Positions 2-29,250 of a stretch of DNA of 30,418 bases are shown here, piece after piece. This DNA is from a virus, in IMG/VR virus record IMGVR_UViG_3300025030_000334, positions 1-30,418 of that record; one strand, 5' to 3'. The translations under genes and the position numbers were made by a program. Under the pieces are notes generated by a model. It saw nothing but the letters and a program-made list of their open reading frames with translations. It ran no database searches and had not been told where the DNA came from. The stretch's first letter is position 1. Each line of letters starts with the position of its first letter.

Positions 2-574
2 GGTGAGTCGGAGGACGAGTCCTCTACAATATTAGCCATTAATGAAATGGCACCGCATGAGCGGGAGAAACTGGCGCATGCGATGCTGCAGCGCGGCGAC
101 AAGTCGCCAACGCCCACATTCGACCCCGCGGCCTATGTCGGCGATTCAATCGGTAGCGGCATAGAGCTGGCCTTTGCAACACGCCTGTTCGCAGCAGGCT
201 GCTCAACGGAGGCGGCTGACGAGCTGAACGGCTTTAGAGAGAAGGTCGCGTCTCTGCGATACCGGCCGCGTGACATGATCGCGCTTCTAGAGGACTTCGA
301 TAGCAAGCATAACCTACCGCGTTATTATGGGTCTACGCTGCTCGACCCTATCGCCGCGGTTTACAACACGATAGAGAAGACTGCCGCTGCACGCTGCACG
401 ACTGTACAGGGCCGAGAGGTCCGTGACGAGGACCTGAGAAAACTAGCTGTCAACAAAGTAAAGCTAGCAGAGAAGTTTGGCGAAGACTTTGCCGACACGT
501 TCTCTCGTGACCCGTTCGCCGTCTTTATCTCACTTCCGGACCCGCACAAGAACATCATCGCAGAGATGCTATGA
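2..574 (+). CDS. Hypothetical phage protein, 5' end outside window
   Basis: The reading frame is open from base 2 to the TGA at 572-574, giving at least 190 residues. The first in-frame ATG is at 47, but no Shine-Dalgarno sequence precedes it. The frame reads through the repeat at 30-44 in the same codon phase used inside other genes here, so the gene probably begins before the window. I recognise no domain. The protein is mostly charged and soluble, with no membrane segment. It carries EKVAS and EKTAA segments like those in many neighbouring proteins. Its stop overlaps the next start (ATGA), which suggests translational coupling. Its position just upstream of the portal suggests a head or virion role, but that is inference only. 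Confidence 0.8.
   Translation, partial: GESEDESSTILAINEMAPHEREKLAHAMLQRGDKSPTPTFDPAAYVGDSIGSGIELAFATRLFAAGCSTEAADELNGFREKVASLRYRPRDMIALLEDFDSKHNLPRYYGSTLLDPIAAVYNTIEKTAAARCTTVQGREVRDEDLRKLAVNKVKLAEKFGEDFADTFSRDPFAVFISLPDPHKNIIAEML
30..44. repeat. Dispersed palindrome, copy 1
   Basis: TATTA-GCCAT-TAATG; one outer mismatch. It lies inside the first gene in the common codon phase, encoding ILAIN. Confidence 0.75.
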
Positions 575-1182
575 ACCCCTCGCAGCTGCTAGAAAACCCA
601 GACGCGCACCCACTTCTGTTGCACGAAATTCTGTCGGCAGAGTTCGGGCCTACGTACGCCGGCTGGGGGCCGGAGACGCTGTGGCTAGAGATAAGCAGGG
701 ACATCGGCCCACTAATTAGCCGCAATAAGCATAGGATTCAGGCTGTGCGGTCGGTGCTGGTTAGTACGACAGTAACGGTAGATATCGTCGCGTTCCAGGC
801 CGTAATGTGGGGCCTACTGGGAATGCCTCCGATGTTTGATCAGATAGTCCCCCCTAACGTCGAGGACTTGGCGGGCGGGGTAAAGATTATTAATCATTTA
901 TACAAGTCGTCGCTGAAGTTCGGCATAGACATCTGCGGCTACTGTGCAGCGGTTCTGGCGGACTCCGGCTTCGTACTTGCCCCGCCATTTCTGGACTTTG
1001 CGAATGCCAAGCTAGCGGCGATAAACCCGCCGCAGGACGTAGCGGCTGTGAAAAGTGCGCTTGCAGACATAGCTACACTAGAGCGCGGCTCACGGACAGA
1101 AATTCAGCTTTCAAAGATACACGCCGTAGTAACGCACCTCAAAGGCATGGATGCATTACTAGAGGCGCAGGCTAAGGGGTAA
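571..1182 (+). CDS. Hypothetical protein upstream of portal
   Basis: This 203-residue protein starts at an ATG overlapping the previous TGA by four bases (ATGA) and ends three bases before the portal start, so it sits in a tightly coupled operon. No domain is recognised. It is a mixed, probably helical protein with several moderately hydrophobic stretches but no clear membrane helix. The repeat copy at 888-902 lies in this gene in a codon phase where a perfect right arm would create a TAA stop; that arm is changed to TTATA. The gene is real by coding density and overlap. A head-assembly role is guessed from position alone. Confidence 0.8.
   Translation: MNPSQLLENPDAHPLLLHEILSAEFGPTYAGWGPETLWLEISRDIGPLISRNKHRIQAVRSVLVSTTVTVDIVAFQAVMWGLLGMPPMFDQIVPPNVEDLAGGVKIINHLYKSSLKFGIDICGYCAAVLADSGFVLAPPFLDFANAKLAAINPPQDVAAVKSALADIATLERGSRTEIQLSKIHAVVTHLKGMDALLEAQAKG
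888..902. repeat. Dispersed palindrome, copy 2 (degenerate)
   Basis: TATTA-ATCAT-TTATA. It is coding in a different phase; an intact TAATA arm here would place TAA in frame. Confidence 0.5.
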
Positions 1183-1185
1183 GCA

Positions 1186-3042
1186 ATGTCGTCGTTTCCC
1201 GCCGGTAGAGTTAGTAGAGCCAAGGGTGTCGGGCGCCCGTCGGAGGCGTTTTATCCGTCTCCATTCTTTGACGTAGCGCAGCAGTACATGCCTAGGACGG
1301 TGCGGGAAACGTATCCTTGGGTATCGTTTTACCAGCAGACAAGCCCTATCGTGGCGACAGTTACGTCCAGGCTGGCGGCATACCCAATAACTGATGTCTT
1401 CTACGAAGAGCAGGATGGCGCCTCGGCGCAGTATTCAAACTTCTTCAACGAAGTGCAGCAGCTACGTACCTTCCTTGTAGAGATAAACCTGGACAGGTAC
1501 ACGTATGGAAACGGATTCGCTTCTATAGCGTATCCGTTCGAGAAGAAGCTGACGTGTAAGGCGTGCAAGTACATACAAACGGCTGCTAAGTCTAACTACA
1601 AGTGGCGAAACCACCAATTCCATATGCAGTGCCCTAAGTGCTCGCATACCGGAATTGCCACTGTAACAGACCAGTTCATCAGATCGTCTGAGCGTATCCG
1701 CCTTATACGCTGGCCGCCCGAGTGCATAATTCCTGACCACAACTCTATCACTGGGCAGACGACTTACTACTACTCGATACCTCAGAAACTCCGTAGTGAT
1801 ATCACTATGGGAACGCGGGCCATAATCGAGGAGACCCCGCAGGTATTCATCGAGGCCGTGCGGCTTGGCATGGCGGTGAAGATAGAGAACAGTAAGATTT
1901 TCCACATGCGCCGGCCTTCGATAAGCAGGGCTACCAGCGACGCCTGCCTTGGCAATCCGCTCATAGTTCCAGTTCTCAAGGACTTGTTCCTTGTACAGAT
2001 TCTTAAGAAGTCGCAGGAGGCGGTCGCTCTAGAGCACATTCTTCCAATGCGCAGTGTCTACCCTAATATCACGTCTGATGGGAATAACGTTTACGCCAAC
2101 GTCAACTTGCAGAAGTGGCAGCAAGAGACAGAGCAGCAGATAAGCCGCTGGCGCCAAGACCCTAACTACATATCCGTTGGAACTGTTCCGATGGGCTATC
2201 AGCTCATGGGCGGGCAGGGCCGGTCGTACCTCCTTCACCAGGAGATACGGATGTATACGGAGATGATCGTTGCGGGTATGGGCGTTCCCGTAGCATTCGT
2301 GTTCGGTGAGGCGCAGTTCTCTGGCGCTAACGTAAACATGCGCGCGATGGAAAACGAGTTCATAGGGAACCGAGATGATATGCTTCGCCTCATTAGGTGG
2401 ATGCATAAGGACATCGGGTCCTTCATGGCGTGGCCGGCTGCCGTCCCAAAGATGAAGCCATTCAAGATGGCGGACGATCTGCAGCGCCTTAACTTTGACA
2501 TGCAGCTTGTAACAAGCCGCATCAAGTCGAAGCACTCGTTCATGGCCGCCATTGACGCCGACTACGATAAGGAAATGGAGCTTATCGCGGAGGAAGACAA
2601 GGCCGCGCAGTTACAGCAGCGTGAGAGCACAATCGCGCAGGCTTACCTCAATGGCGAGTCCATGCTGATAGGCGCGGACTTTCAGGCAATGGCTAACGCC
2701 AAGATGGCGGATGCGCAGGCACAGCAGCAAGCCGCTATGGGGCCGCCACCGGGAGAAGAGCAGCCGCAGCAAGGAATGCCGCCACCGGACCCAATGGCAG
2801 AAGAAGCACCACCACAGGGCTATCAGGGGCAGGCCGACCCCACCGCAACAGCGCAAGCATTGGCTAGGCAGATGCAGTCTATGCGTACCGTCGATAGGTA
2901 CAACAGACTGCAGGAGCTAAAAAATACTGATGCCGAGCTAGCCACGCAAGTCGAGCTTCGGCTCAACGGTGGCGGCGTTGATATGCGGCCACTGCCCTCC
3001 AAACTTCCGCCTAGACGCGGCCCTGGCAACGCAATCATCTAA
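1186..3042 (+). CDS. Portal protein
   Basis: This 618-residue protein looks like a phage portal, the dodecameric ring at the head vertex through which DNA is packaged and which contacts the terminase and tail. Supporting segments include SPIVATVTSRLAAYPI near residue 50, RYTYGNGFASIAYP near residue 105, and the stretch around residues 350-400 containing EMIVAGMGVPVAFVFGEAQF and NVNMRAMENEF, the usual arrangement of portal stem and wing regions. An unusual insertion at about residues 124-155 has two CxxC pairs (CKAC and CPKC), a likely zinc ribbon. The C-terminal 100 residues are rich in Pro, Gln and Met, probably disordered. AAGGGG lies six bases before the ATG. The gene is followed by a repeat copy and a terminator hairpin. 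Confidence 0.82.
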   Translation: MSSFPAGRVSRAKGVGRPSEAFYPSPFFDVAQQYMPRTVRETYPWVSFYQQTSPIVATVTSRLAAYPITDVFYEEQDGASAQYSNFFNEVQQLRTFLVEINLDRYTYGNGFASIAYPFEKKLTCKACKYIQTAAKSNYKWRNHQFHMQCPKCSHTGIATVTDQFIRSSERIRLIRWPPECIIPDHNSITGQTTYYYSIPQKLRSDITMGTRAIIEETPQVFIEAVRLGMAVKIENSKIFHMRRPSISRATSDACLGNPLIVPVLKDLFLVQILKKSQEAVALEHILPMRSVYPNITSDGNNVYANVNLQKWQQETEQQISRWRQDPNYISVGTVPMGYQLMGGQGRSYLLHQEIRMYTEMIVAGMGVPVAFVFGEAQFSGANVNMRAMENEFIGNRDDMLRLIRWMHKDIGSFMAWPAAVPKMKPFKMADDLQRLNFDMQLVTSRIKSKHSFMAAIDADYDKEMELIAEEDKAAQLQQRESTIAQAYLNGESMLIGADFQAMANAKMADAQAQQQAAMGPPPGEEQPQQGMPPPDPMAEEAPPQGYQGQADPTATAQALARQMQSMRTVDRYNRLQELKNTDAELATQVELRLNGGGVDMRPLPSKLPPRRGPGNAII

Positions 3043-3046
3043 TCAG

Positions 3047-3061
3047 TATTAATCATTAATA
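3047..3061. repeat. Dispersed palindrome, copy 3
   Basis: TATTA-ATCAT-TAATA, part of a perfect 19-bp palindrome (3045-3063). It lies between the portal stop and the terminator hairpin. Confidence 0.9.
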
Positions 3062-3070
3062 CTAGGTAAA

Positions 3071-3090: not shown

Positions 3091-3109
3091 CCCGGTTCCC
3101 GCCGGATGG

Positions 3110-3379
3110 TCAGCGTTCTGCTACAAACGTCCGTGGCTCCCAGCGGTTAGTCACCAGACGGTCGAGTAGGTAGCGGAACCTCCTCTCGATATATCGACGT
3201 GCCGATGACTCTCCGTCGAATGAAGTCCGCCGCGCGTCGCCCACAATAACAACTACCCACTCACCTGCACCTCCGTCGTAGAACGCCAACAGTGACTCCC
3301 CGTCAACGTTGTACAGTCTGCGCCCTTTCCACCGCAGTGGCGGCGCATGTGTAATACTCACAATGCTGTCTCCTTCCAT
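3110..3379 (-). CDS. Small hypothetical protein
   Basis: This 89-residue minus-strand gene is read away from the RNA polymerase gene. A strong GGAGG lies four bases upstream of its ATG, and it follows the 85-residue gene by 19 bases, so the two form a small operon. The protein is basic at its C terminus, with many Arg residues after residue 55, and has a short beta-like segment (EWVVVIVGDARR) in the middle. No domain is recognised. Its minus orientation inside a + strand structural block, together with a hairpin terminator just downstream, is typical of an independently expressed accessory (moron-like) gene. That reading is inference. Confidence 0.7.
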   Translation of the reverse strand: MEGDSIVSITHAPPLRWKGRRLYNVDGESLLAFYDGGAGEWVVVIVGDARRTSFDGESSARRYIERRFRYLLDRLVTNRWEPRTFVAER

Positions 3380-3398
3380 TTATCCTCCTTCACCCTTC

Positions 3399-3656
3399 TT
3401 ATGCCAAAATCTCCACTCTAGTTGCGGTCTGCGCGAGGTTTATAACGTGCGCAATGAGTACATTCGAGTACTCATTGCACGTTGGGCAGACGCCGGTGGT
3501 GTAGTAGCCCTTCAGCGCAAAAGTGTTCTTCTCCGCGCAGGCCGGGCACACCCACCCCATCGGTGTTATTCTGCTGGCCCTCTTGAAATGCCTGCACGCA
3601 TCACACCTTGTCGGGGTGTGGCATGGCGCAGGCGTAAACTCACAGCGTACTGACAT
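3399..3656 (-). CDS. Small zinc-ribbon-like protein
   Basis: This 85-residue minus-strand gene has three Cys pairs: CDAC near residue 18, CPAC near residue 37 and CPTC near residue 58. That pattern suits a small zinc-ribbon or zinc-finger protein that binds nucleic acid or a protein partner. No specific family is recognised. GGAGGG lies just before the ATG. The gene stands immediately after an intrinsic terminator that separates it from a 20-codon ORF, so its expression may depend on read-through or antitermination. The 89-residue gene follows 19 bases later. Confidence 0.75.
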   Translation of the reverse strand: MSVRCEFTPAPCHTPTRCDACRHFKRASRITPMGWVCPACAEKNTFALKGYYTTGVCPTCNEYSNVLIAHVINLAQTATRVEILA

Positions 3657-3697: not shown

Positions 3698-3706
3698 CTA
3701 CTTCAC

Positions 3707-3855: not shown

Positions 3856-3870
3856 TATTAATCATTAATA
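3856..3870. repeat. Dispersed palindrome, copy 4
   Basis: TATTA-ATCAT-TAATA in the divergent control region of the RNA polymerase gene. It starts 32 bp from copy 5. Confidence 0.9.
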
Positions 3871-3887
3871 GCACGGCCTGCATCCAT

Positions 3888-3902
3888 TATTAGTCGTTAA
3901 TA
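3888..3902. repeat. Dispersed palindrome, copy 5
   Basis: TATTA-GTCGT-TAATA, 54 bp before the RNA polymerase start codon. It is paired with copy 4. Confidence 0.9.
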
Positions 3903-3956
3903 TTGTATGCGCGGCGACTAAGTGGTAGACTAATTGGGTATTTTACGGAGTCCACA

Positions 3957-6900
3957 ATGTCCGAGCAGGTACATTCGTTAGATCCCGAGACAACGATGTC
4001 TCTCCTACTAAACAACGTAGTAGGCGCTATAGGTACGTACTTTCCCTTTGCAGGTAAGACGCAGAGGTTGGAGGCAACGAAGGTCTATGCCGGTACAAAC
4101 GAACTCGACGTTGACAATATCGAAGCTCAGAAGAATGCGAAGCTTCGAGGTAGAACTTGGTCGATTCCAATATATGCTGACCTCGCCCTTAAGAACATTG
4201 CCACTGGAGAAGTCGTTTCCTCCGCAACTAAAGTCACAGTTGCTCAGCTGCCCCACATTACCCGGCGATATTCGTACATCGTTGACGGTTCGGAGTATCA
4301 GGCTGACCACCAGTGGCGCCTCAAAGCAGGGGCGTATTCTCGCGTCAAGGGTAACGGTGAGCTTGAGACCCAGTTTAACCTTTCAAAAGGAAAAGGTTTC
4401 AGAGTCCAGTTCGACCCCGTAAAGCGTACGGTGCAGATGCAGTACGGTACGTCGAACATCTCCGCGTACCCAGTGCTCAAGGCCCTCGGTGTCTCAGACG
4501 ACGAGATAAAGAAGGCGTGGGGCGACGAGCTATTTTCTGCGGTATCCAAGGAAAACAAGAAGGGCCAGCTAATGCGGTTGGCCAAGATTCTAGATAAGAA
4601 GTTAGTAGCTACTGATGAGAACTCAGCGGCGGATATTGTCCGCACGCAGATGTCTCTCACTAAGCTAGATCCAGAGACAACCGAGATAACGCTTGGTAAG
4701 TCGTTCGACTCGGTTACTGGCGACAGTGTTTTATTAGCTGCTAATAAGTTGATTAAGATAAACAGAGGCGAAGCCGCGCCAGATGAGCGCGACTCGATTC
4801 TGTTCAAAGAGTTGTGGAACATCGCGGACCACATACCTGAGCGAATAATCAACTCTAAGAATCAGCTTCAGATGAAGCTGCGTAACAACATCGACCGCAA
4901 GACTGAGGTCCGTGGGATCGTTACGCCTGACTTGTTTAGCATGCCTATCAAGTCGTTCTTTACGGCTACGTCGCTTTCACAGCAGCCGGACCAGACTAAC
5001 CCGGTAGACATGATTGGCGCGCATCTGCGCACCACGTTGATGGGCACTGGCGGCATCGGTAGTGACAACGCTGTTGCGCTGGAGGCCAAGCAGACACATC
5101 CAAGCCAGCTTGGTATCATCGACCCGGTGCACACCCCGGAGGGTGAACGAAGCGGCATCTCCACGCACCTAGCACTTGGCGTCTCCAAACGCGGACTTAG
5201 CCCGACTATGCGCCTGTGGGATACCGAGAAGAAGGAATGGACCGATAAGAGTCCGCTAGAGCTGCGTAATTCTATGGTCGCCTTTGCTGACCAGTACGAT
5301 ATGACTAGCGGGACTCCGAAGGCATTAACTAATAATATTGTGGCAGTTAGTCCTGGTGGCGGAGACCCGCGGTCTATCTCAAAAGACGAGATAGACTACG
5401 TTATCCGCAGCCCTAAGGCGATGTTCTCATTCGCCGCCAACCTAGTGCCATTCCTGCCGTCCGTTCAGCCCAACCGTGCGGAGATGGCCACCAGGCACAT
5501 TGAGCAGACTGTAGCCCTCAAGCACAGGGAAGAACCGCTCGTGCAGTCGTCCTCTGGCTCAGAGCGTTCGGACATCTCATCATGGGAAAAGTTGCTCGGC
5601 AAGCAGCACTCGCATCGCTCGCCAGTTGCCGGTGTAGTCACAGCAGTTACGCCAGGAAAGATGACCATAAAGGATGGTAAGGGCGCGTCGCACGTTGTGC
5701 AGCTATACGACAACTTCCCGCTTAACGAGAAGAAGACTTTTACGAACAGCGAGGCGACAGTAAAGGTCGGAGACAAGGTAGATAAGGGAGACCTTGTCGC
5801 GGATACTAACTACACAAAGAATGGCGTGCTGGCCCTTGGTACTAACCTGCGCGTTGGGTATCTGGCCTTTCGTGGCGGCACGTTCGAGGACGGCATCGTC
5901 GTATCGGAGACAGCTTCCAAGAAACTCACGAGCGAGCATCTAAGCAAAGAGCGGTTATTCGCGGATACCGACGCGGTGTTTGACTTGCGGAAGTTCCGAG
6001 GAAACTTCCCTTCCAAGATCACAGACGAGAACGCCAAAAAGCTAGACCCGAGCGGTGTCATACGTAAGGGAATGGTTGTGTCACCAGGTGACACCATAGT
6101 CGCCGCTATGCGAAAGGCTGACCCGTCGTCTGAGCAGATAATGCTCAAGGGTCTGCATAGAGCGCTTGCCAAGCCTTATCGCGACTTATCGATAGTGTGG
6201 GACAAGCCCATCTCTGGAGTCGTGACTGACGTGGCGATAAACGGGCGGGAAACCACGGTCTTTGTCAAGACCGAGGAGCCGGCCGACGTAGCCGATAAGC
6301 TCTGCTACGCAGCTGACCATGAGATATTAACCATTAATGGTTGGAAGCTTGTGGCCGATATTATCGTCGGCGACTTAGTAGCTTCTCTAAACAGAGTTAC
6401 AGGTTACATAGAGTATGTGCGGGTCGAGGCCACGCACACGTACGGCTGTGTAGACGAGAACCTTTATACGTTAGAAACTACGCAGGTTTCTATGGCCGTT
6501 ACCAAGGACCACGGCCTGTGGGCGATGCCTCGGAAAGAGCAGCGCTACCGTGAAATCAAGGCGATAGACCTGTACGGAAAGTACTACCGCCTAAAGATGT
6601 GCGGTAAGTGGGCTGGCATCGACCAGGCATACTTCACCTTTCCCTCTACCGTTGTGTATGCAGGCCAGCACGGAAACGGAGTCAGAACGCTGCCCGAGGT
6701 GGCATGGCCAATGGCGACGTATCTGATGATACTCGGCATGTACCTCTCGGAGGGTAACTGCGTTTGGGATGATAAGAACGGTAACTACAGCATCCAGATA
6801 TGCCAGGTTAAGCCGGCCAACGTAGCGCAGCTAGTGAGGGCGCTTGAGGACTCGGGAATCGCGTATCGTCGTAATGGCGATAAGTTCGTAATAACTGGCA

Positions 6901-9900
6901 AGCAGATAATGCTCCATTTCCATCAGTTCGGTTTGTGCTACGAGAAGTTCATACCAGAGTGGGTATTCGCTCTTCCGCCGGCTAAGCTGGACATACTCTA
7001 TAAGTGGCTAATGTGGGGCGACGGTAACGAGACTGGCACCAGCCATTCTTATGCTACTACGTCTAGACAGCTGGCCGATGGCGTGCAGCGCTTGTTGCTG
7101 CATATCGGCCTCGCGGGCAAGATAGACGTTAAACCTGCGTGCGACGGCGTTATAAAGGGAGTCAGCTACAAGTTCCGCGAGTGCTATAGGGTAGCGGTGT
7201 ACCGCGATAAGCTGCGCCCTACCATAAATCACGGCCATCACGATACGCAGAACGGGCAGGAAGAATGCCTACGGCCCTATACAGGCAATGTCCACTGCGT
7301 AACGCTAGCTGAAAACCACGTCCTGTACACTAGGCGCAATGGTAAGGCGCATTGGTCGTGCAATAGCGGCCGCTTCGGTAACAAGGGTGTTATCTCCATG
7401 GTGCTCCCAGACGCAGAGATGCCGAAGGACGCCGAGGGTAACCCAATAGAAATCATAATGAACCCGTCCGGTGTCCCGGGCCGAATAAACCCTGGGCAGG
7501 TTCTTGAGACTTCCATAACCAACGCGGCAAAAGCAGCCGGCATGGTTGTGGAGGTGAACAGCTTTGAGAAGAACCCCGACAAACTGCTAGCGTTCGTCCC
7601 TCCGGCCGGTAAGGTGCAGGTGGATGGGCACTTCCGCACTGTGAAAACCAAGGATGGCGAAAAGCGCATCTGGATAAAGCCGTACGAGTACAATAGAGAA
7701 AAGGGCTTTTACGGCGCGGTAGATTCCGCCCTTAAGCAGTACGGTGTTTCTGAGACTACGGAGCTATTCGATTCCACCACTGGGAAGTCTCTGGGACAGG
7801 TGTTGACCGGGTATCAGTACGTCCACAAGCAGAAGCACCAGGTTGCTAGCAAACTCAATGTGCGCGCGCATGGTCACGGCTTTGGCTACGACCAGAACGG
7901 ACAGCCACGCCCATCTGGTAGGCACGACGGTGCGCAGCGTTTCGGCGAATTGGGTCTGTACGCCATGCTCGCGCACGGAGCCACCGCCAACATCCGAGAG
8001 GCTCTCTCGTACAAGTGCTTCCCCTATCACGAGAAGGTGCTGACAGAGCACGGCATGATAGAGATTGGTAAGATTGTTACGAACCGCATGGACGTGCGCG
8101 TAGCCAGCAAGAATCCTGACGGGACGCTGGATTACAAGAACATAACGAACTATTGGCGTCGGCCGATGCACGGCGTCGACATATTAGCGGTTAATACTTA
8201 CGCCAGCATCGATAACATCTCCTACCGGAGAACACGGATTACCTGCGCGGACACACACGAGTTCTATACTGTACGCGGCAAGGTGCACGCCAAAGACCTC
8301 TGTCAAGACGACATGTTGCTCACGCCCGGTAGCCGTATTTCTCAGGTCCAGCGAGAAGTGATCATAGGGTCACTATTGGGTGACGGGTCTCTTATTAAGA
8401 AAGCCTCAACGCAGTTCCCCTCCTTTCAGGAACGGCACTGCCTGGCGCAGCGCGACTACCTGCAGTTCAAAGCCGACGTTCTCGAGAACCTCTCTTACCC
8501 GCGTGACGTGCGAGAATACAATGCCGGCGAAGAAGGTTTCAATGTCGGTCAGCAGATGGTTGAATGGCGTACCAACTGCCATCCGGAATTGCTGCCATTG
8601 CACGAGACGTTCTATGCCACCGGCGAGCGCCGCTTTCCTGCACGTGTATGGGAAGAGCTGACTTTGCTGAGCCTTGCGATATGGTTTCAGGACGACGGGG
8701 CCGGTTTCATAGCCAAGGGCAACGTTGACCCTACGATTAATATCGCCGCCTGCTCTATGACCCCGGAAGAGCTGGACAACGCCGCCGCCGCCATAGAGCG
8801 TCTGACGGGCGTTAGGTTTAACGTTTATTACGATGATGGATACCTAGTGAAGCAGGGCGTAGAAACGCACAAGTTCATACTTGCAGTGGCGCCGTATATA
8901 CATCCAGTGATGCAGTATAAACTTTGTGGGCTGGCTCTAGAGCCCGGTGGGGCTATAGCACGGACGCTAGCGGGTGCTATCGGGGAAATACAGCTAGTTC
9001 CTGTACCGGTGCTAGGCACGAAGAAGTTGGGAAAGGGCGAAGCGCTGTCTAGATGGCGTGGCGAATACCTGTTCAATCTGGAGGTAGAGGATACCCACTG
9101 TTACTTTGTTCGTAACATTCTCGTTGGGAACTCTGATAGGCAGCAGGACGAGGTGTGGACGGCGATTCAGACTGGGCAGCCGCTCCCCGCTCCCCGGACA
9201 AGCTTTGCATACAGTAAGTTCTTGGCCTATCTGCAGGCAGTCGGCGTCAGCGTTGAGAAGAACGGCAACGAGCTTAAGCTCGTTCCGCTGACAGACGCAC
9301 AGGTCTTGGATATGTCGAGTGGTGAGCTTAAAGACGCTACTAAGGTAGTCCGCGGTAAAGACCTAACTGTCGAGAAAGACGGGCTGTTCGACGAGAAGAT
9401 TACCGGTGGTCCGGGCGGCAAGAAGTGGTCACACATAACTCTTGCGGAGCCTATTCCTAACCCGCTGTACGAGACTGCTGTCATGTCCATCCTGGGGCTG
9501 ACTGGCAAGCGGTATGAAGAAATATTAATGGGTAATGAAAAGCTGGGCGAGAAGACCGGCCCGGCGGCAATAACAGCTGCGCTAGAAAAAGTCGACGTGG
9601 ACAAAGAGATAGTCCTGGCCAAAGAGGACCTGCGCACCGCTAGGCGCGATGAGCTTAATCGTCTTAATCGGCGTACCAAGTACCTCATAGCGCTAAAGAA
9701 TCTAGACATGCGTCCGGAGGATGCCTACGTCACTAAGCACGTCGGCGTTATACCTCCTATCTTCCGCCCAGTTACCGCCATGGAGTCTGGAGACCTGAAT
9801 GTCGACGGTATAAACTTGCTGTACAGAGACGTTGCCATGATGTCTCAGAAGCTGCAGCAGGCTCGCGGCGTATTGCCGGAGAAGGAAATCGCCAAGCTGC

Positions 9901-16492: not shown

Positions 16493-16917
16493 TGCGAGAC
16501 GCGGTTGAGCCAGGGCCGATTCCAGCAGTATTAATGACTAATACTGTGGGCGGCGTTGCAATAGATAAGTTCGTTGCCTGCACTAGCAAACTTCCTGGGC
16601 TCCACATAGAGTACGTGGATACCCCGGAAGAAACTGCGTATAGATTCTGGGCAGATGACGGCGAGTTTTCTGAGGAGCTTGTGCACCTTATCGAAAAGGC
16701 CGCGGCAGAGGTTATGACGCCAGAATCATGCGTTGTCAGCCCTATCGACAATGTCTACCGAGACGCCGATAGCATGGAAAAGCGTGAATCAGAGACCGCT
16801 ATACTGGTGGCAGGCCAGCTGACTAATCGGTCTCCCTTTAAGTACGAACTTATAGTAAAATGCTTGGAGAAGTTACTTTTCCAAGCGGTGGACAATGGCA
16901 ACGTCAGCAACAGATAG
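16492..16917 (+). CDS. Hypothetical small protein
   Basis: This 141-residue protein starts at ATG 16492, with GAGGGG six bases upstream. The GTG at 16489 is an alternative that adds one residue. It carries a palindrome copy (16529-16543) encoding VLMTNT near its N terminus. The sequence is acidic in the middle (DDGEFSEELVHLIEKAAAEV) and mixed alpha/beta. No domain is recognised. Its 3' end overlaps the next gene by 23 bases and contains a strong hairpin (16862-16886) just ahead of that gene's start. Confidence 0.7.
   Translation: MRDAVEPGPIPAVLMTNTVGGVAIDKFVACTSKLPGLHIEYVDTPEETAYRFWADDGEFSEELVHLIEKAAAEVMTPESCVVSPIDNVYRDADSMEKRESETAILVAGQLTNRSPFKYELIVKCLEKLLFQAVDNGNVSNR
16529..16543. repeat. 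Dispersed palindrome, copy 16
   Basis: TATTA-ATGAC-TAATA with 8-bp arms (CAGTATTA and TAATACTG). It lies near the start of the 141-residue gene, encoding VLMTNT. Confidence 0.92.
16862..16886 (+). promoter_or_regulatory. Strong RNA hairpin before the 662-aa gene start
   Basis: An 11-bp stem (GCTTGGAGAAG paired with CTTTTCCAAGC, one G-U pair) has a TTA loop and ends nine bases before the ATG at 16895, immediately ahead of the GGTGG that would serve as its ribosome site. It lies inside the coding end of the previous gene. No T-run follows, so it is not an intrinsic terminator. Possible roles are an RNase processing site, an mRNA-stabilising structure or control of initiation. Confidence 0.6.
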
Positions 16918-20606: not shown

Positions 20607-20615
20607 TCATTAATA
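20601..20615. repeat. Dispersed palindrome, copy 19
   Basis: TATTA-ATCAT-TAATA spans the helicase stop codon (TAA at 20604-20606) and ends on the A of the next gene's ATG, so it fills the whole gap. Confidence 0.92.
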
Positions 20616-21094: not shown

Positions 21095-22804
21095 GTGTTC
21101 GGATTCGACCCAATAATACCAGCGTCGGTTAAGAGCGACTACCCAAATGTGGTGAAAGTCACTCCCTCTAGGTTTACAGAGACATCTGTAAAGATACCGG
21201 AGGCCGGTCAGCTAGCGCCATTCAGCTTTGTGGGTAGGCGGTATCTTAAGCCTATCTACGATTCTAATGACGAGCAGATACTTTTATGCTTTGCCAGGCA
21301 GTCTGAAAAAAGCACAACTATAGGAAACAGCTGTATAGCAAAGAGCTGCCTTCGCCAGTACTACAGAATTTTGTTCGTTAGCCCGACACAGACACAGACA
21401 GAGACGTTTTCTCGTGACAGGCTGGCGTCACCGATAATGCAGTCTGAGTTGTTGCAGCAGTACAAGGGTAAGGGCATTCGGTTTCCGGATAATGTCCTAT
21501 ACAAAAAGTTCATCACCGAATCCGACATCACACTTAGGTATGCATTCCTTAGCGCCGATAGGTCGCGAGGTGTTTCTGCCGAGATGCTAGTGCTGGACGA
21601 GATTCAGGACATCTTGGTGGATGTAATCCCGATTGTGCGAGAGGCCTGCTCCCACTTTCCGCAGAAGTGTTTCAGGTACGCAGGTACACCTAAGACCCTA
21701 GAAAACACGATGAACGTGTATTGGGAAAGGTACTCCACGCAGAACGAGTGGGTCATACCCTGCGACGGCTGTAAGACGTGGAACGTGCCCGATGAGAGCA
21801 ACATAGGTAAGAAGTTCCTAATCTGCATGAAGTGTGGGAAGCAGATTTTCCCCGACCACCCGAACGCCCAGTGGGCGTCAATGCGGGACGAAGAGTGGCT
21901 GCGTAATCCGCCACTGAACACCGTTTATACTGGCTATAGAATACCGCAGATAATTGTGGCGTGGGCCAAGTGGGCCGACATTCTGGATAAGATGGAAGGC
22001 AAGGGGTATACCCGCGCGCAGTTCCTGAATGAGTGTCTTGCCAGGGCGTATGACACTGCAGCAAGACTCCTGACTAGAAGCCTTCTTAGAGCGAACTGCG
22101 ACGAGGGCAGAAAAGCCGCTGATGGTGTGCTGTTTGCCGACCGCGGTGCTGCCTACATGGGCATAGACTGGTCAGGCGGCGAGGAAGGGCAGGAGCGGTC
22201 ATTCACTGTAGTCACCATCGCTGCGTACGTCGGCAGCAGATTTTGTGTGCTGTATGTGCATAGATTCGAGGGACTAGACGCCGAGGAAGAGGCGATGATG
22301 TCAATCATCGAGCGTCTAGTGGAAGTGTACAAAGTCCGCCTCATAGGCACCGACTACGGCGGCGGACACGTCTACAACCGCAGACTTATCAACAAGTTTG
22401 GTCTTAGGCGCGTGTACCGGTACCAGTACTGCGGAGCCAAGTTCATCTACTACGACAAAGACCTTATGCGCTTCATGGTGAATCGAACCGAAGCCATCAT
22501 GGCGGTCATAACCGCTATACGGTCTGGGAACGTCTTTTCCTTCTTTTGTTGGGAAGACTTTCAGCGTTTCGCTGATGACTTTCTGTGCGTGTTTCAAGAG
22601 CAGACAAAGCGCGGAGACGTCACTGTTTCCAAGTCTCCGGGTGCTGTAGACGACGCATTGCATTCTCTCGTGGTAGCTTTTCTTGCCTCTTTGATAGAGC
22701 ACCCGAGACCTGATATAATGAGACCAACTGGCCTTAACGATACAACCTCCGATGAAAAGCTGGAGGATCTGATGGACTACACGGAGACATCGTACGATGA
22801 ATGA
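21095..22804 (+). CDS. terL: Terminase large subunit
   Basis: This 569-residue DNA-packaging motor starts at GTG with AGGA eight bases upstream. The ATPase domain shows a variant Walker A, ARQSEKST (from residue 67), with Glu where Gly is usual, a Walker B MLVLDEIQD (Asp at 168) and the coupling segment AGTPKT. A zinc-ribbon-like insertion follows, CDGC (residue 223) and CMKCGK (about 243). The C-terminal nuclease has GIDWSGGE (about 355), IGTDYGGGHVYNRR (about 417) and DDALHSLV, supplying the acidic metal ligands of the RNase H-like fold. Together with the portal it would translocate and cut the genome. The stop overlaps the next start by 8 bases. Confidence 0.93.
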   Translation: MFGFDPIIPASVKSDYPNVVKVTPSRFTETSVKIPEAGQLAPFSFVGRRYLKPIYDSNDEQILLCFARQSEKSTTIGNSCIAKSCLRQYYRILFVSPTQTQTETFSRDRLASPIMQSELLQQYKGKGIRFPDNVLYKKFITESDITLRYAFLSADRSRGVSAEMLVLDEIQDILVDVIPIVREACSHFPQKCFRYAGTPKTLENTMNVYWERYSTQNEWVIPCDGCKTWNVPDESNIGKKFLICMKCGKQIFPDHPNAQWASMRDEEWLRNPPLNTVYTGYRIPQIIVAWAKWADILDKMEGKGYTRAQFLNECLARAYDTAARLLTRSLLRANCDEGRKAADGVLFADRGAAYMGIDWSGGEEGQERSFTVVTIAAYVGSRFCVLYVHRFEGLDAEEEAMMSIIERLVEVYKVRLIGTDYGGGHVYNRRLINKFGLRRVYRYQYCGAKFIYYDKDLMRFMVNRTEAIMAVITAIRSGNVFSFFCWEDFQRFADDFLCVFQEQTKRGDVTVSKSPGAVDDALHSLVVAFLASLIEHPRPDIMRPTGLNDTTSDEKLEDLMDYTETSYDE

Positions 22805-23759
22805 CCTGACTTCTCTACTCACCACGTCGTTCAACAGCACGGTCGATGTTTGCGCGATAGGACGGCAGGTGGCGGCCAAGTACCTAGCCGACGGCTCGCC
22901 GCTCAACGACTCAATAGCCGAGCACATAAAAGAGTCCTCACTGAATAGCGAGCAGCTTAGGCGCGTTGTCGAAGAGGCCAACAAGCAGACGTTTGCCGGC
23001 CTGTTCAAGCGCGGGAACTACGGCAAGAACGTAGAGTTCCCCGTGGCGGACTTCACGAAACTGTGCATGGCTAAGGAGTCCGCTAAGCGCAGCCTCGTCG
23101 CCGGAACGACGGAGCGGACGAAGACTGCTAGCGTTAACAGGCTTACGCCAAAAGGCGGCGACTTACTTCTGTCTGGGCTGTTCGGCAGTGATATCTTCAA
23201 GGAGAAGGTCGCCGCTGTAGTTTCTCCGGAAGTATTAATGACTAATAATGTCACTAAGCTGGCCGCCCTGCGGGAAGACAAAAAGGATATAGGCGGTAAG
23301 CACTATGCCGCTACTGAGGAATTCAATACAAAATTCTTCAAGCTAGGCACGCTGATTAAGTCTGCCAGCCTGCAGCACGGCGCGGCCATAGTGGCAGCAG
23401 CACTTGCGGCGGGCAAACCCACGGCAGCACTAGCAGAACTCATAAAAGAGGCGTTCGCGGTAGACCCGGCGATGGCGCCTCCTCCAGGCCAGATGCAGCA
23501 AGCCGGCATGGAAGTTGTACAAGGCAACCCGGTTACAGGGCTAGTGCAAGACCTAGACCAGGTTGTAAACAAACTGTTCGCAGCCAGGACCGCCATGCAG
23601 AAAGTAGACGAAGGTATCTTCGAGCTACAGGCAGTATTGAAAGGAAGCGGCCCTCCTACTGAGCAGGTGTTCGCACAGTCCGCTCCACCGCCTCCACCGG
23701 ACCCATCTCAGCCTGAGGTGCAGCAGCCCGGCCCAGGTGCACAGTATGCTCCAGCGTGA
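22797..23759 (+). CDS. Hypothetical protein with Pro-rich C terminus
   Basis: This 320-residue protein starts at ATG 22797, overlapping the terminase end, with GGAG ten bases upstream. The N-terminal 220 residues are helical and charged, with repeated K-[TVL]-A motifs (TKTASVN, KEKVAAVV, TKLAALR). The last 90 residues are rich in Pro, Gln and Ala, with a PPPPPDP stretch, probably disordered. A palindrome copy encodes EVLMTNNV in the middle. No family is recognised. Its position between terminase and protease suggests a head-assembly or internal virion role. Confidence 0.75.
   Translation: MNDLTSLLTTSFNSTVDVCAIGRQVAAKYLADGSPLNDSIAEHIKESSLNSEQLRRVVEEANKQTFAGLFKRGNYGKNVEFPVADFTKLCMAKESAKRSLVAGTTERTKTASVNRLTPKGGDLLLSGLFGSDIFKEKVAAVVSPEVLMTNNVTKLAALREDKKDIGGKHYAATEEFNTKFFKLGTLIKSASLQHGAAIVAAALAAGKPTAALAELIKEAFAVDPAMAPPPGQMQQAGMEVVQGNPVTGLVQDLDQVVNKLFAARTAMQKVDEGIFELQAVLKGSGPPTEQVFAQSAPPPPPDPSQPEVQQPGPGAQYAPA
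23233..23247. repeat. Dispersed palindrome, copy 20
   Basis: TATTA-ATGAC-TAATA in the 320-residue gene, encoding VLMTNN. Confidence 0.9.
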
Positions 23760-24363
23760 TAGATACGACGCGATAACCAAGCTAGCGGAAAAGAAATTAA
23801 GCCCTACGGAGAGAGTGGGCAAGTTGACTTCGCACGCGTCAAGATGGGCAACACGCGGTACTACTGCCCTGGAGACTCCGCTGGTCTCGGCCGCGGCATT
23901 TCCATTTCGTGTAATCGGAGACCTAGCCGGCTTGGCGCTGTTCGGCAACAAAGCTGTTAGCGGACCCATGCGTGGTCAACGGCTTAAGCCCGTAGCAGGT
24001 GGCCCAGGCGTGGGCATGTCACAGATAGACCGCGCAAGGTACGAAGCAATAAAGGCCGGCAAGGTTCCAGGCAAGGCGTTCTCCGGCGCTCTAGAGGGGC
24101 ACCCTATGCACTTCGAGCGCAAGTTCGCCCCTGGCGGCCTTGTCGGCTACGCGCAGCGGCATCCGGGTAAGGCGATGGCGGTGGGCGCTCTCGGTGCCTA
24201 TCTACTGACTCACAGAGATAAGGCCGGCCCTGCCTACGAGTTAGCACGCGGGTTCGTGCCCGTGGCCCCTGCCCCTGATAGAGGAGTATCGGCGCAGACC
24301 GTCGGTATGTTCTCTCAGCAGACAAACACAAACAATCCATTAACCAGTAATACTTGGGGGTGA
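23746..24363 (+). CDS. Hypothetical protein with one hydrophobic segment
   Basis: This 205-residue protein starts at ATG 23746 (AGG eight bases upstream), overlapping the previous stop; a GTG at 23737 would add three residues. It is basic at the N terminus. Two hydrophobic regions are visible: LVSAAAFPFRVIGDLAGLAL (about residue 48) and KAMAVGALGAYLLTH (about residue 141), the second a possible membrane helix. A palindrome copy encodes NPLTSNT just before the end. No domain is recognised. The next start follows the TGA after one base. Confidence 0.7.
   Translation: MLQRDRYDAITKLAEKKLSPTERVGKLTSHASRWATRGTTALETPLVSAAAFPFRVIGDLAGLALFGNKAVSGPMRGQRLKPVAGGPGVGMSQIDRARYEAIKAGKVPGKAFSGALEGHPMHFERKFAPGGLVGYAQRHPGKAMAVGALGAYLLTHRDKAGPAYELARGFVPVAPAPDRGVSAQTVGMFSQQTNTNNPLTSNTWG
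24338..24352. repeat. Dispersed palindrome, copy 21
   Basis: CATTA-ACCAG-TAATA; one outer mismatch. It lies 11 bases before the end of the 205-residue gene, encoding PLTSNT. Confidence 0.75.
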
Positions 24364-25102: not shown

Positions 25103-27712
25103 ATGATTAAATACATTCAAACGCCTGGAGTGTGGGAGGACGGCACGGCAACGTGTCAGCTAATTCCGCAGACCAGCGGCTTGAAGATAAAGACGGCTGC
25201 GCCCTTGCACGAGGACGTGGCCGCTTTTATTTCTAAGCTAAAGCCAGATAGCGGCAAAATATATGTGCTGGTCAACGCCCTTGGCGCCGGAGAGTTCTAC
25301 GGGTCTAACCTTAACTCCGACTGGTTCGGGGAAGAGGAATTACTCGGAGACTCTGGCGGTACTTATGGGTTAAAGACGTTCCTAGACGCCGGCGTGTATA
25401 GACACCACTGTTTTGTCGCGGGTACTCCAGTAGTGACCGGTTCTGGCCGTCGCGTAGCGATTGCGACTGTAAAGCCCGCCGATATAGTGAGATCCGGGGA
25501 TGGCCATGCTGTCCCCGTGGTGCAGGTGTTTAGCGACCATTACACCGGCGCTGGCGTAGAGCTAGAGTTGAGTGGCGTACTAGATAACACAAGGGTTACG
25601 GCGTCGCATCCGTTTCTGTGCTACCGGTATGCCGACATCCATTGCAGGCACAAATACATGCGAACCACGGCAACGGGCCACGGAGGGCACTGCCGTGAAT
25701 TTAGAACGGCGATAGGCCCGCCAAGGGTGGTCGCGGCCGGCGACTTGCGTCCTGGCGACTATGTTCTCAGGCCGATGCTGCCCCCTGGCAGTGAGGCGGT
25801 GGACCCGAATTTTGCCGAACTCGTTGGGTGGGTAGCGTCTGAGGGTTGCGTAAATGACGGCAGCATCCAGTTCACTTTTTCTACTAAGAACGAAGTCGAC
25901 ATCTCTTCAGTTGCTCGGTGCCTCTTACTCAACGGCGTGCTCGTAGGAGTTACCGAGCTTCCGGAGAAGGGGACAACACACCTTATCGCGTACGCTCCGC
26001 AGCTAGCGCACAAACTTTCAAAGTATGTGCGTGGCACGCTAAGCGTTAAACGATTAACGGAAGCGCTATATTCGTGGGACGCTGCCTCACTGCTACGCAT
26101 GCTCGGGGCCTTTATAGACGGTGATGGGCATATAGCGCCTAGAGGGAAGAATCGCGGACAGTTACGTATCCGCTCCGCCTCACGCCAAATGTTGCAGGTG
26201 CTTAGTGACATAATTATGTCACTGGGCATCCCCAGTACTAGCAACTGGGATACGCCGCCTGGCACTATGCTAAGCCCTGTTGCCGGCTATGGCGAGTACA
26301 CACATCTCGGATCTGGGTGTGTGGCCGTCTCAGCGGAGTATGCCGCTAAGATTGCTGTGTACAGTCGAAAGAAGTTGGCCTTTGTCAGTCGGAAGGCCGC
26401 TTCTAATTTAAGGACTAGTTTCGGGTTTCTAACGCGGGTTCACGGTACTACGGCAATTGAGCTGGACGAGCAGGTGTACACCCTTGAAGTTGGCGAGCCC
26501 AACACGTACGTTGCCAATGAGGTAGCCGTACACAATTGTAATAAGGACAAAGAGAAAAGCTTTGGCGAAGTTCTGCTGTCTGTCTACAACAGGCGCATGC
26601 ATAGAATTGAGTTAATATTAGCCATTAATAAAAAGCTGGCTGTAGAGTTCGGACACTCCGACCTTGTAGCCGCGCTGGAGACTGGTAAGCCCGTACCTGT
26701 GTCTATGGGTTGCAAGGTACCGTTCGACGTTTGCCGCATATGTGGCTTTGAGTCCAAGAGCCCGAAGAGCCGCTGCGACTGCATGCGACTCTCGGCCAAC
26801 TCCATACTCAGCGACGGGCGCCGTGTTTGCGTAGCTAACCCCAGACCGCGGTTCTTTGATATCAGCTTTGTCATAATAGGAGCTGATAGTACAAGCTTCG
26901 CTATGACGAAGATTGCGTCACTACTGTCCGCGCAGGTAGGAACCGCCAGCAAGAGCAATGGCCAGATACGTGCGGAGCTACTTGCCGCTGTAAAGGAAAA
27001 GTCCGCTGCGCAGCATAAGTTTAGCGAGCTGATAAAGCGCGTTCCCGCAGTGGCCGTGCCAGTAGCAAATAAGATGAGCGCGCTTGACGGTACATTAGAC
27101 TACGAGTCGCTACTGCGCATAGCCATGGCGGCTCCGATGTCTTCCGTACTGTCTGGGCTTACGTCTGCGGGCGTAGTACTGTCTCCACTTGAGTACCAGA
27201 CTATCGCACTGGCTAATGCCGGTATGGGCGGAATGGCACAGTCAATGCATAGCCGCGGCGCGTCGTTCGCTCCGTCATCGCGTGTGTCAGACGTATCCAT
27301 GCACGACTTCTCGCCGACGGCGCTTCCAGGCATTGACGCGATAATGCGGAAACGTTCGTGCATGCCAGATATGCTTGGCCCAAGATTGTTTAGCGGCGGG
27401 TGCGGCGGAGAAATAAATCAAATAGGACGCACAGAAGAAAATAGTATTCTTTCTTCATTATCGGCTCCGTATAATGGGTACAGGATAAGAGCACTCCTGA
27501 GTGGGTGCGACATGTGCAGTTCTTTTGCAAATAGAGAAAGCGCCTTCTTCGGGAAGCCCGGGTTTGGCGAAGAGTATAAGCCAGTAATAACTGCTTTTAT
27601 CTTCGTCTCAGGTAGACGTGGCTACGGCTCCGCTACTCCTCTCGATAGCTTCCTGCAAGGAAACGCTTCGCTAGCCACAACGGTAATGCAAGGTCTAAGA
27701 AGTCTAGACTGA
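25103..27712 (+). CDS. Capsid maturation (prohead) protease-like protein with intein
   Basis: The 869-codon gene contains a 376-residue intein, leaving about 493 residues. The extein has NALGAGEFYGSNLNSDWF, then VYRHH joined across the intein to CNKDKEKSFGEVLLSVYN, then MHRIELILAIN and VPVSMGCKVPFDVCRICG. This is the pattern I know from phage head-maturation proteases, in which a His in the (N)H-x-NKD segment and a Ser in V-SMG are the likely catalytic residues; here these are His 102 and Ser 534 of the precursor. Cys residues in CRICG and CDC may bind zinc. Position before scaffold-like and capsid genes fits prohead processing. The start has no clear ribosome site and lies six bases after the previous stop, so coupling is likely. 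The C-terminal 250 residues are unassigned. Confidence 0.7.
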   Translation: MIKYIQTPGVWEDGTATCQLIPQTSGLKIKTAAPLHEDVAAFISKLKPDSGKIYVLVNALGAGEFYGSNLNSDWFGEEELLGDSGGTYGLKTFLDAGVYRHHCFVAGTPVVTGSGRRVAIATVKPADIVRSGDGHAVPVVQVFSDHYTGAGVELELSGVLDNTRVTASHPFLCYRYADIHCRHKYMRTTATGHGGHCREFRTAIGPPRVVAAGDLRPGDYVLRPMLPPGSEAVDPNFAELVGWVASEGCVNDGSIQFTFSTKNEVDISSVARCLLLNGVLVGVTELPEKGTTHLIAYAPQLAHKLSKYVRGTLSVKRLTEALYSWDAASLLRMLGAFIDGDGHIAPRGKNRGQLRIRSASRQMLQVLSDIIMSLGIPSTSNWDTPPGTMLSPVAGYGEYTHLGSGCVAVSAEYAAKIAVYSRKKLAFVSRKAASNLRTSFGFLTRVHGTTAIELDEQVYTLEVGEPNTYVANEVAVHNCNKDKEKSFGEVLLSVYNRRMHRIELILAINKKLAVEFGHSDLVAALETGKPVPVSMGCKVPFDVCRICGFESKSPKSRCDCMRLSANSILSDGRRVCVANPRPRFFDISFVIIGADSTSFAMTKIASLLSAQVGTASKSNGQIRAELLAAVKEKSAAQHKFSELIKRVPAVAVPVANKMSALDGTLDYESLLRIAMAAPMSSVLSGLTSAGVVLSPLEYQTIALANAGMGGMAQSMHSRGASFAPSSRVSDVSMHDFSPTALPGIDAIMRKRSCMPDMLGPRLFSGGCGGEINQIGRTEENSILSSLSAPYNGYRIRALLSGCDMCSSFANRESAFFGKPGFGEEYKPVITAFIFVSGRRGYGSATPLDSFLQGNASLATTVMQGLRSLD
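25409..26536 (+). mobile_element. Intein 3 (LAGLIDADG) in the protease gene
   Basis: This in-frame 376-residue insertion begins CFVAGTPVVTGSG and ends YVANEVAVHN before Cys, a canonical His-Asn/Cys junction. Block B is present as VTASHPF (TxxH). Endonuclease motifs are LVGWVASEG (about residue 138) and LGAFIDGDG (about residue 232), so it is a LAGLIDADG homing endonuclease intein. It interrupts the gene directly after the presumed catalytic His pair, so the protease should be inactive until splicing. Unlike inteins 1 and 2 it carries no copy of the dispersed palindrome. Confidence 0.93.
26204..26223. repeat. Perfect 20-bp palindrome inside intein 3
   Basis: AGTGACATAA is followed directly by its exact reverse complement, in the coding region for LSDIIMSL of the endonuclease part. 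It is unrelated to the dispersed TATTA/TAATA site. A role is not evident; it may be a by-product of codon choice. Confidence 0.5.
26616..26630. repeat. Dispersed palindrome, copy 22
   Basis: TATTA-GCCAT-TAATA in the extein of the protease gene, encoding ILAINK. It is 80 bases after intein 3. Confidence 0.9.
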
Positions 27713-27809: not shown

Positions 27810-28412
27810 ATGGCAACTGGTAACCCGATTCTAGACGCTCTACACGCAGGCGATAACTCCGGCGACGGTGGCGACGAGAAGCTTCAGCAGATCCTGGCCG
27901 CGAGCCTAGACGAGCTAGAGAAGACCGCCGCTGCCGGCGGCTACGACCTGAGCAGCCTCTCGGACGACGACATCGCCGAGATGGTAGCTGAGATTGCCCA
28001 GCAGCAGCATGGCGTCGGTGGCGCGGATGGCGCTGGTGATTCGGCCTTCGACGAGCAGGTGAAGGTCGCTGAGTACCTCGGACGCGTACAGGCACAGGCT
28101 TACGCCGATGAGATTCTTAGCATCCAGAAGCAGGCGTCGGCAATCGAGCTGGACCCGTCCCAGGTCGACCAGCTCGCGCAGATGAACGCCATGGATATTC
28201 TGGTCACGCTCAACCAGCTCGACCCGCGCACGGATGGTGCAGCGATTCAGGAGTCGAACGGCCGCGAGAAGGTCGCGTCGGTTCTGCTGAACGAGAACAT
28301 CGCCCCCGTCACGATGGAGGCCATCGAGGTTCGTACGATGGAGCACCTCCAGGCCGCCGGCTGGGACGTAGAGAAGATCGCCTTCGCGCTTACACAGCTG
28401 GCCAACTCCTAA
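27810..28412 (+). CDS. Acidic scaffold-like protein
   Basis: This 200-residue, strongly acidic, mostly helical protein has GAGGAA upstream of its ATG. Asp/Glu/Gln-rich helices (DDDIAEMVAEIAQQQ, YADEILSIQKQ) and its position between the protease and the capsid gene fit a scaffold or head-core protein, though no family is recognised. It holds four K-[VIT]-A segments (LEKTAAA, VKVAEYL, REKVASVL, VEKIAFAL). Codon use differs from the upstream genes: every Ile codon is ATC or ATT and most third positions are C or G, which suggests high expression. Confidence 0.6.
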   Translation: MATGNPILDALHAGDNSGDGGDEKLQQILAASLDELEKTAAAGGYDLSSLSDDDIAEMVAEIAQQQHGVGGADGAGDSAFDEQVKVAEYLGRVQAQAYADEILSIQKQASAIELDPSQVDQLAQMNAMDILVTLNQLDPRTDGAAIQESNGREKVASVLLNENIAPVTMEAIEVRTMEHLQAAGWDVEKIAFALTQLANS

Positions 28413-28413
28413 G

Positions 28414-28428
28414 TATTAATCACTAATA
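28414..28428. repeat. Dispersed palindrome, copy 23
   Basis: TATTA-ATCAC-TAATA in the 33-base gap between the scaffold-like gene and the next, just before its ribosome site. Confidence 0.92.
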
Positions 28429-28445
28429 ATCAGGAGTACGACCCG

Positions 28446-28895
28446 ATGTCCCCGGCAGACAAGCTAATCAACCTACGAGACGGCGAAGGCAAGCAGAAGG
28501 TAGCTTCAGCTATGCTCGACGACGATCACGTAGAGAAGCTTGCAGGGGCGCTGGAGTTCATGGCCGCTTCTTACGTGGGCCCGGAGAAGAACGATCTCCG
28601 GTCTCTCGTAACAGAGAAGCTCAAGGCAAAGTTTGCGAGTCGCGGAACCGCACCTGCCTTGACCGCCGTTAGTTTGCAGCAGGAAGTTCAGGACGAACAG
28701 CCTGCCGCAAGTAGCGCCTCTGCTGGCGTACGCGATTTCGATGAAAGTACATTGACCCTTGACAGCATGCTGTCAGAGGTCCTGGGTGGCGCCGATAGTC
28801 GAGGTCCGGCCCCGACGGAGACTCAGGCGACCAGCAAGGTTGCGGCGGATAAAGACGGGCTGCGTAAGCTGCTACAGCAAAGGAGGGCACCGTGA
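28446..28895 (+). CDS. Hypothetical head-region protein
   Basis: This 149-residue protein has AGGAG nine bases before the ATG. The N-terminal half is helical and basic-acidic, with KQKVASAML and VEKLAGAL, echoing the preceding protein. The second half is Ala/Ser/Gln-rich and probably disordered, ending in a basic LRKLLQQRR. No family is recognised. The preceding 33-base gap is filled by a palindrome copy. Its TGA overlaps the next GTG. A scaffold or capsid-accessory role is inferred from position. Confidence 0.65.
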   Translation: MSPADKLINLRDGEGKQKVASAMLDDDHVEKLAGALEFMAASYVGPEKNDLRSLVTEKLKAKFASRGTAPALTAVSLQQEVQDEQPAASSASAGVRDFDESTLTLDSMLSEVLGGADSRGPAPTETQATSKVAADKDGLRKLLQQRRAP

Positions 28896-29248
28896 ACACT
28901 GATGACCATCCTTTCCTGTTTAAGGTTGCCGCAGCTACCCTGCGTGAGCAAAAGTCGGCCATACGGGAACTTAAGGAGAAGGTAGCGGAGTTGCAGAAGC
29001 GTGACTCCGACTATACCACCGCCCTACAGATAGTTGAGCTACTGAGAGAGCGTGGACAAGATAACCACGACCTCCCCACCAGCGAAAAGGTGGCTATGCT
29101 CATGGGCTCTGGTAAAGACCTCTCTGCCGTTAAGGAGTCCATAGAACGGACTGCCCCGGATATGTCCTTCGCGTCGCTCACTAGTCGGCCGACAGCCGCT
29201 TCGTCGTCAGATAGACTCACCAACCTCATCAACGGTATTAACGAGTAA
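28892..29248 (+). CDS. Small coiled-coil protein
   Basis: This 118-residue protein starts at GTG 28892 with a strong AGGAGG five bases upstream. Residues about 10-55 (AAATLREQKSAIRELKEK ... EIVELL-type heptads) form a likely coiled coil. It contains LFKVAAAT and SEKVAMLM. The C terminus is Ser/Thr-rich. The gene's own TAA stop is supplied by the right arm of a palindrome copy (29236-29250). No family is recognised; coiled coils near capsid genes often belong to scaffold or head-core proteins. Confidence 0.65.
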   Translation: MNTDDHPFLFKVAAATLREQKSAIRELKEKVAELQKRDSDYTTALQIVELLRERGQDNHDLPTSEKVAMLMGSGKDLSAVKESIERTAPDMSFASLTSRPTAASSSDRLTNLINGINE

Positions 29249-29250
29249 TA
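29236..29250. repeat. Dispersed palindrome, copy 24
   Basis: TATTA-ACGAG-TAATA. Its right arm supplies the TAA stop of the coiled-coil gene, and it extends to within five bases of the next start. Confidence 0.9.

Follow-up and report, generated by a model that had tools for sequence, protein, structure and literature searches.

A dispersed palindrome in an uncultured phage

The 30,418-bp fragment of an uncultured phage analysed here (the window) raises the question of which protein reads a short palindrome, TATTA-N5-TAATA, that recurs along its length, and to what end. Seventeen exact copies are present, compared with a mean of 0.01 and a maximum of 1 in dinucleotide shuffles, and the set rises to 25 copies when up to one mismatch is allowed. 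A preliminary description had counted 24 copies by eye; its 17 exact sites and six outer-base variants (30, 5323, 6325, 9523, 13422 and 24338) stand, but the arm variants number two (888 and 27575), which brings the total to 25. The symmetry that it had seen in the spacer, with C or T at base 2 and A or G at base 4, is found in 25 of 25 copies. Their spacing averages 1,217 bp with a coefficient of variation (CV) of 0.55, compared with 0.94 ± 0.17 for random points (P ~0.003), in agreement with the earlier impression of a more even than random distribution interrupted by two close pairs, 32 and 30 bp apart. These distances, measured between the centres of the paired sites (3856–3902 and 13422–13466), correspond to approximately three helical turns. 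A CRISPR-like array was rejected as a reading of the palindromes, and so was a mobile repeat, since the flanks of the sites are not conserved. The 25 sites, to which no strand is assigned, are as follows.

30–44: site TATTAGCCATTAATG, one outer mismatch; intergenic
888–902: site TATTAATCATTTATA, one arm mismatch; coding; homologous position occupied in relative G001
3047–3061: exact site TATTAATCATTAATA, directly 3' of the portal-like gene; a G001 site is similarly placed (2374)
3856–3870: exact site TATTAATCATTAATA, 5' of the RNA polymerase gene; paired with 3888 at 32 bp
3888–3902: exact site TATTAGTCGTTAATA, 5' of the RNA polymerase gene
4732–4746: exact site TATTAGCTGCTAATA, within the RNA polymerase gene; a similar site with matching context lies in the polymerase genes of G005 and G010
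5323–5337: site CATTAACTAATAATA, one outer mismatch
6325–6339: site TATTAACCATTAATG, one outer mismatch; within intein 1; homologous position in G001
8182–8196: exact site TATTAGCGGTTAATA, within intein 2
9523–9537: site TATTAATGGGTAATG, one outer mismatch; homologous position in G001, with altered spacer
10771–10785: exact site TATTACTGACTAATA
11446–11460: exact site TATTAATGGCTAATA
13422–13436: site CATTAACGATTAATA, one outer mismatch; paired with 13452 at 30 bp
13452–13466: exact site TATTAATCACTAATA
14907–14921: exact site TATTACCGAATAATA
16529–16543: exact site TATTAATGACTAATA
17154–17168: exact site TATTATCCACTAATA
19225–19239: exact site TATTAATGAATAATA
20601–20615: exact site TATTAATCATTAATA, sharing bases with a stop codon and with the start codon of the next gene
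23233–23247: exact site TATTAATGACTAATA
24338–24352: site CATTAACCAGTAATA, one outer mismatch
26616–26630: exact site TATTAGCCATTAATA
27575–27589: site TATAAGCCAGTAATA, one arm mismatch; absent from the earlier list
28414–28428: exact site TATTAATCACTAATA, intergenic
29236–29250: exact site TATTAACGAGTAATA, overlapping a stop codon

Selection on sites within genes

Eleven exact sites lie wholly inside genes of the window, compared with 0.055 in synonymous-codon shuffles, a codon-preserving comparison that had been proposed beforehand as a possible refutation and that the palindrome survives. Across the window proteins (9,528 residues), the residue pattern permits an in-frame site at 12 places, compared with 1.9 ± 1.4 in shuffled proteins, and 11 of these 12 places bear the exact palindrome, the exception at 9118 being the end of an intein. 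Such an excess of permissive places, nearly all of them realised, suggests that selection for the DNA site has bent protein sequence. TTA accounts for 6% of Leu codons in the window, and motif sites contain 17 of its 57 TTA codons. All 17 coding copies of the relaxed set share one codon phase, because the other two phases would give an in-frame stop or a forced Tyr codon. Judging from these counts, selection for the palindrome appears strong enough to alter the essential proteins encoded there.

The phage and its relatives

In addition to a SNF2-type helicase, the window encodes three genes that help to place the phage.

1186–3042, plus strand: portal-like gene of the clade, assigned from position and homologues
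3957–12419, plus strand: fused beta-beta' RNA polymerase with two inteins, the marker gene of the clade; the longest open reading frame (ORF) starts from TTG at 3903
21095–22804, plus strand: large terminase (GpA ATPase, PF05876)

Both inteins of the polymerase are of the LAGLIDADG type, and a gene of the structural region (25103–27712) contains a further, third insertion that is intein-like and has a LAGLIDADG domain. The polymerase homologues in G009, G010 and G002 comprise about 2,087 residues and are seemingly intein-free; that of G001 has the first intein in common with the window and another intein elsewhere. Between the portal and polymerase genes (3110–3656) are two small minus-strand ORFs, one with a zinc-ribbon-like cysteine pattern.

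Relatives in phage databases are distant (Vibrio phages D69, D148 and D181 and Salmonella phage Arash, at ~30% identity), and closer ones are found in IMG/VR, with G001 at 66% and a further set at 53–56%. Near-complete relatives of 135–181 kb were reached through alignment of the helicase; direct scans with single terminase and portal proteins returned no matches. A genome-collection scan of 84,980 species genomes revealed no relatives.

The palindrome was sought in these relatives by a blind scan, in which all gapped palindromes were ranked in each genome. TATTA or ATTA arms with a 5-bp (N5) or 4-bp (N4) spacer came first or among the top matches in each of the seven near-complete relatives, as they did in the majority of the shorter ones. 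The N5 form took this place in G020, G025, G031, G033, G009, G010, G005, G006 and G032, and the N4 form in a subclade comprising G023, G028, G037 and G036, whose geometry is TTA-N4-TAA as opposed to TTA-N5-TAA elsewhere in the clade. In G028 and G037, N4 and N5 palindromes are each enriched within one genome. The presence of the palindrome in relatives and across near-complete genomes answers the other objection raised in advance, that it might be confined to the window. The C/T and A/G spacer preference characterises the window lineage and a small number of others; G020, G025, G031 and G033, near-complete relatives of the N5 type, do not display it, and in them the arms alone are fixed. Exact N5 sites range in density from ~0.1 to 5.6 per 10 kb across genomes, with an interval of ~1.2 kb in the window phage and of 3–5 kb in most relatives. 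A control using the reversed pattern nearly always gave a count of zero.

The palindrome extends through most of the clade. G001 contains four exact and four near sites with the core TATTAACSGTTAATA; three of them occupy coding positions homologous to those of the window (888, 6325 and 9523), one has a similar place beyond the portal gene, and others are not common to both. No palindrome was enriched in the 21–25 kb examined of the clade members G002–G004, and it is weak or absent in several short clade contigs. G002 and G004 have the clade polymerase protein, yet no enriched palindrome in the stretch examined. The palindrome is absent from the outgroups G007, G008, G011, G012, G013, Arash and D69.

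Conservation and placement of the sites

Comparison of related genomes reveals that the arms persist. Between G031 and G033 (75% DNA identity), 13 of 15 alignable sites retain nine or more of the ten arm bases, where ~25% would be expected, while the spacers vary freely. Among the N4 genomes, arms are kept at 8 of 16 sites between G028 and G037 (~20% expected) and at 5 of 13 between G023 and G037 (~17% expected).

Sites span the whole contig in the seven near-complete genomes. Of their 239 sites, 67% fall in conserved genes, compared with 84% of random points, and 22% fall between co-directional genes, compared with 8.5% of random points, a ~2.5-fold excess. Across seven genomes, of which the window is one, the sites are more evenly spaced than random points (Stouffer z −4.0), three of the seven being not significant singly. 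Together with the shuffle tests, the relatives support the original reading of the palindrome as the site of a dimeric DNA-binding protein that acts genome-wide.

A ParB-family protein encoded by the relatives

The preliminary description had suggested a ParB-like gene among the candidates to look for, and one is present in six of the seven near-complete genomes that have the motif, and missing from G011, according to clustering of ORFs (taken from a simple longest-ORF caller, with no gene finder). A profile search confirmed ParB in the same six genomes and in no other record searched; the motif-free G011, G012, G007, Salmonella phage Arash and Vibrio phage D69 gave no match. In the incomplete G033 (134.5 kb), the motif is present and parB was not found. 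Searches of the window and the first relatives, mostly fragments, with PF02195 and PF17762 detected no ParB, and two scans for the parB of the window lineage found no contig of that lineage; the window phage's own parB lies outside the 30-kb fragment. Scanning again with the conserved core of ParB revealed no new lineage, and a tblastn search of plasmids with the phage ParB as query returned no match.

The phage ParB (~305 aa) consists of a ParB N-terminal domain, a ParB helix-turn-helix (HTH) and an unusual C-terminus, and the first two place it in the ParB/KorB/Noc family. PF02195 scores above cut-off in G028 and G023 (N4 type) and more weakly in G025 and G020, with PF17762 below cut-off; TIGR00180, TIGR04285 and the PHROG ParB family are also matched, and ParB/Spo0J/Noc entries of the PDB, 7ol9 among them, are matched by both sequence and fold, the structure model being of modest confidence (pLDDT 63). 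The CTP-pocket motifs GYRRxQA and ENxQR are invariant in the six phage proteins and conform to the family patterns GxxRxxA and ENxxR.

ParB subtypes differ between N4 and N5 genomes. For every protein compared, this split tracks the phage tree, and it is therefore not independent evidence for binding by ParB; as proof of binding, the match of spacer to subtype was set aside. No consistent site was found at the parB promoter, the single case being a site 121 bp upstream in G023. Among 74 clade-conserved families missing from G011, two with a recognisable sequence-specific DNA-binding domain were found, ParB and an XRE-type protein, among the 25 of 52 Pfam families listed. The conserved set of G025 that is absent from G011 also includes a TROVE/Ro60-type domain protein and an AAA+ ATPase adjoining parB. 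ParA (PF13614) was matched in none of nine near-complete or long phage records, and searches for tyrosine integrase (PF00589) and serine recombinase (PF00239) found none. In Gordonia phage BBQValindra, which has a ParB-like gene, the palindrome CTCG-N1-CGAG is modestly enriched (18 versus 2.7).

What may read the palindrome

The palindromes are probably dispersed loading sites of a phage-encoded clamp of the ParB/Noc/KorB type that acts genome-wide, the co-occurrence of protein and sites pointing to ParB as their binder. Each half of the ParB dimer would read one TATTA arm, and the spacer, of 5 bp or, in the subclade, 4 bp, would determine how far apart the two halves lie. On the model of KorB and Noc, ParB may be loaded at every palindrome, take up CTP, form a closed clamp and slide onto the flanks, so that near-even loading sites could allow it to coat or organise the entire phage genome. 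As no ParA was found, plasmid-type partition is less likely than an architectural role or genome-wide silencing. A fuller picture, put forward tentatively, is that of a phage family with no detectable integrase in which an orphan ParB-type CTP clamp, loaded at near-even sites, coats and organises the viral DNA. The result would resemble a chromatin-like system assembled from a partition protein, its sites dense enough to reshape structural and polymerase proteins, and might serve to compact, protect or segregate the DNA or to time its expression.

A rather unlikely variant retains ParB as the binder and makes it a silencer in the manner of KorB, of lysogeny type or for the early phase, instead of a genome organiser. 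The precedent is that KorB, a ParB-family CTP clamp, silences promoters from distant operators (PMC11790492). The KorB operator and the phage sites have identical TTA-N5-TAA geometry, and the excess of sites between co-directional genes would suit such a role; nevertheless, the majority of sites are intragenic without an apparent link to promoters, their spacing is more even than random, and neither an integrase, a KorA-like partner nor a relative among the 84,980 species genomes was found.

The conserved XRE-type HTH protein (~145 aa) is an unlikely reader. The sites would then be its operators, serving a genome-wide repressor or elongation block similar to stoperators. It is encoded by six of the seven near-complete motif genomes and by G009 and is unmatched in G011, and the palindrome is of a length to which XRE dimers are suited. 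XRE repressors normally rely on a small number of promoter operators, however, whereas about two thirds of the phage sites are intragenic, and the sites are spread genome-wide; in none of seven genomes does a site lie shortly upstream of the XRE gene, and neither a tyrosine integrase nor a serine recombinase was found. Genome-wide, largely intragenic sites typify ParB relatives such as Noc, and for this reason ParB is preferred over the XRE-type protein.

A role as promoter element for the phage's own fused RNA polymerase is very improbable: that polymerase defines the clade and two sites lie directly upstream of its gene, but the sites are symmetric, mainly intragenic and untied to gene starts save for the general intergenic excess, and outgroup phages with similar polymerases have none. 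Chance, codon bias or a repeated protein motif (L-x-x-N), to which the single phase of most coding copies might point, is refuted by the dinucleotide and codon shuffles (0.01 and 0.055 expected), by the stop and Tyr constraints that account for the phase, by the intergenic copies and by arms that are conserved while spacers drift.

Comparison with known systems

The ParB-family protein KorB of plasmids RK2 and R751 is a close parallel. It loads at its operator OB, slides as a CTP clamp and silences at a distance (PMC11790492). OB sites are likewise dispersed TTA-N5-TAA palindromes (TTTAGCSGCTAAA), nine in the 50 kb of R751 examined, and the blind scan, applied to this IncP plasmid as a positive control, recovered the operator as TTTAGC-N1-GCTAAA in nine copies. 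Unlike the phage sites, OB serves promoters with KorA as partner, and R751 encodes a ParA-family protein beside KorB; the phage sites are mostly intragenic, more evenly spaced than random and as dense as ~5 per 10 kb, with ParA not found. The similarity between the phage ParB and KorB is at family level only (hhalign probability 58%).

Noc is a ParB paralogue without the ParA-binding motif that nucleates at scattered 16-bp chromosomal sites and spreads with CTP (PMC8429893, PMC12704722). The phage protein resembles it in matching TIGR04285 and PDB 7ol9. Noc of Bacillus acts on cell division at the membrane through an N-terminal helix, and the sequence that it recognises is unlike the phage palindrome. 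Chromosomal ParB-parS shares the family, the domain order and a palindromic site, but parS is mostly near the origin and operates with ParA (PMC7333895), whereas in the phages the sites extend along the genome and searches for ParA found none.

The stoperators of cluster A phages, to which the preliminary description had compared the palindromes, provide a less well supported parallel. There too, a single phage protein is served by numerous dispersed sites whose motif drifts among relatives (PMC6550527), but stoperators belong to temperate phages, are 13 bp long and asymmetric, mostly keep one orientation with respect to transcription and are bound by a monomeric repressor (PMC6550527, PMC9283540). 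The sites described here are palindromic, and the phage records contain no match to PF00589, PF00239 or PF13614.

A survey of the ParB fold covering phages and other groups already exists (PMC12704722), and a limited search of the open-access literature found no account of a phage genome along which ParB-type sites are dispersed at near-even intervals. If the proposed reading is true, a partition-type DNA clamp is used along a full viral genome, and these phages provide a candidate case in which genome-wide organisation or silencing can be tested. Their 4- and 5-bp spacers and varied density would, in addition, constitute a natural experiment on how site spacing in the ParB family relates to function. 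In this large uncultured phage family, most members known almost in full encode a ParB that probably loads at the palindromes, and the viral genome may be organised or silenced as one.
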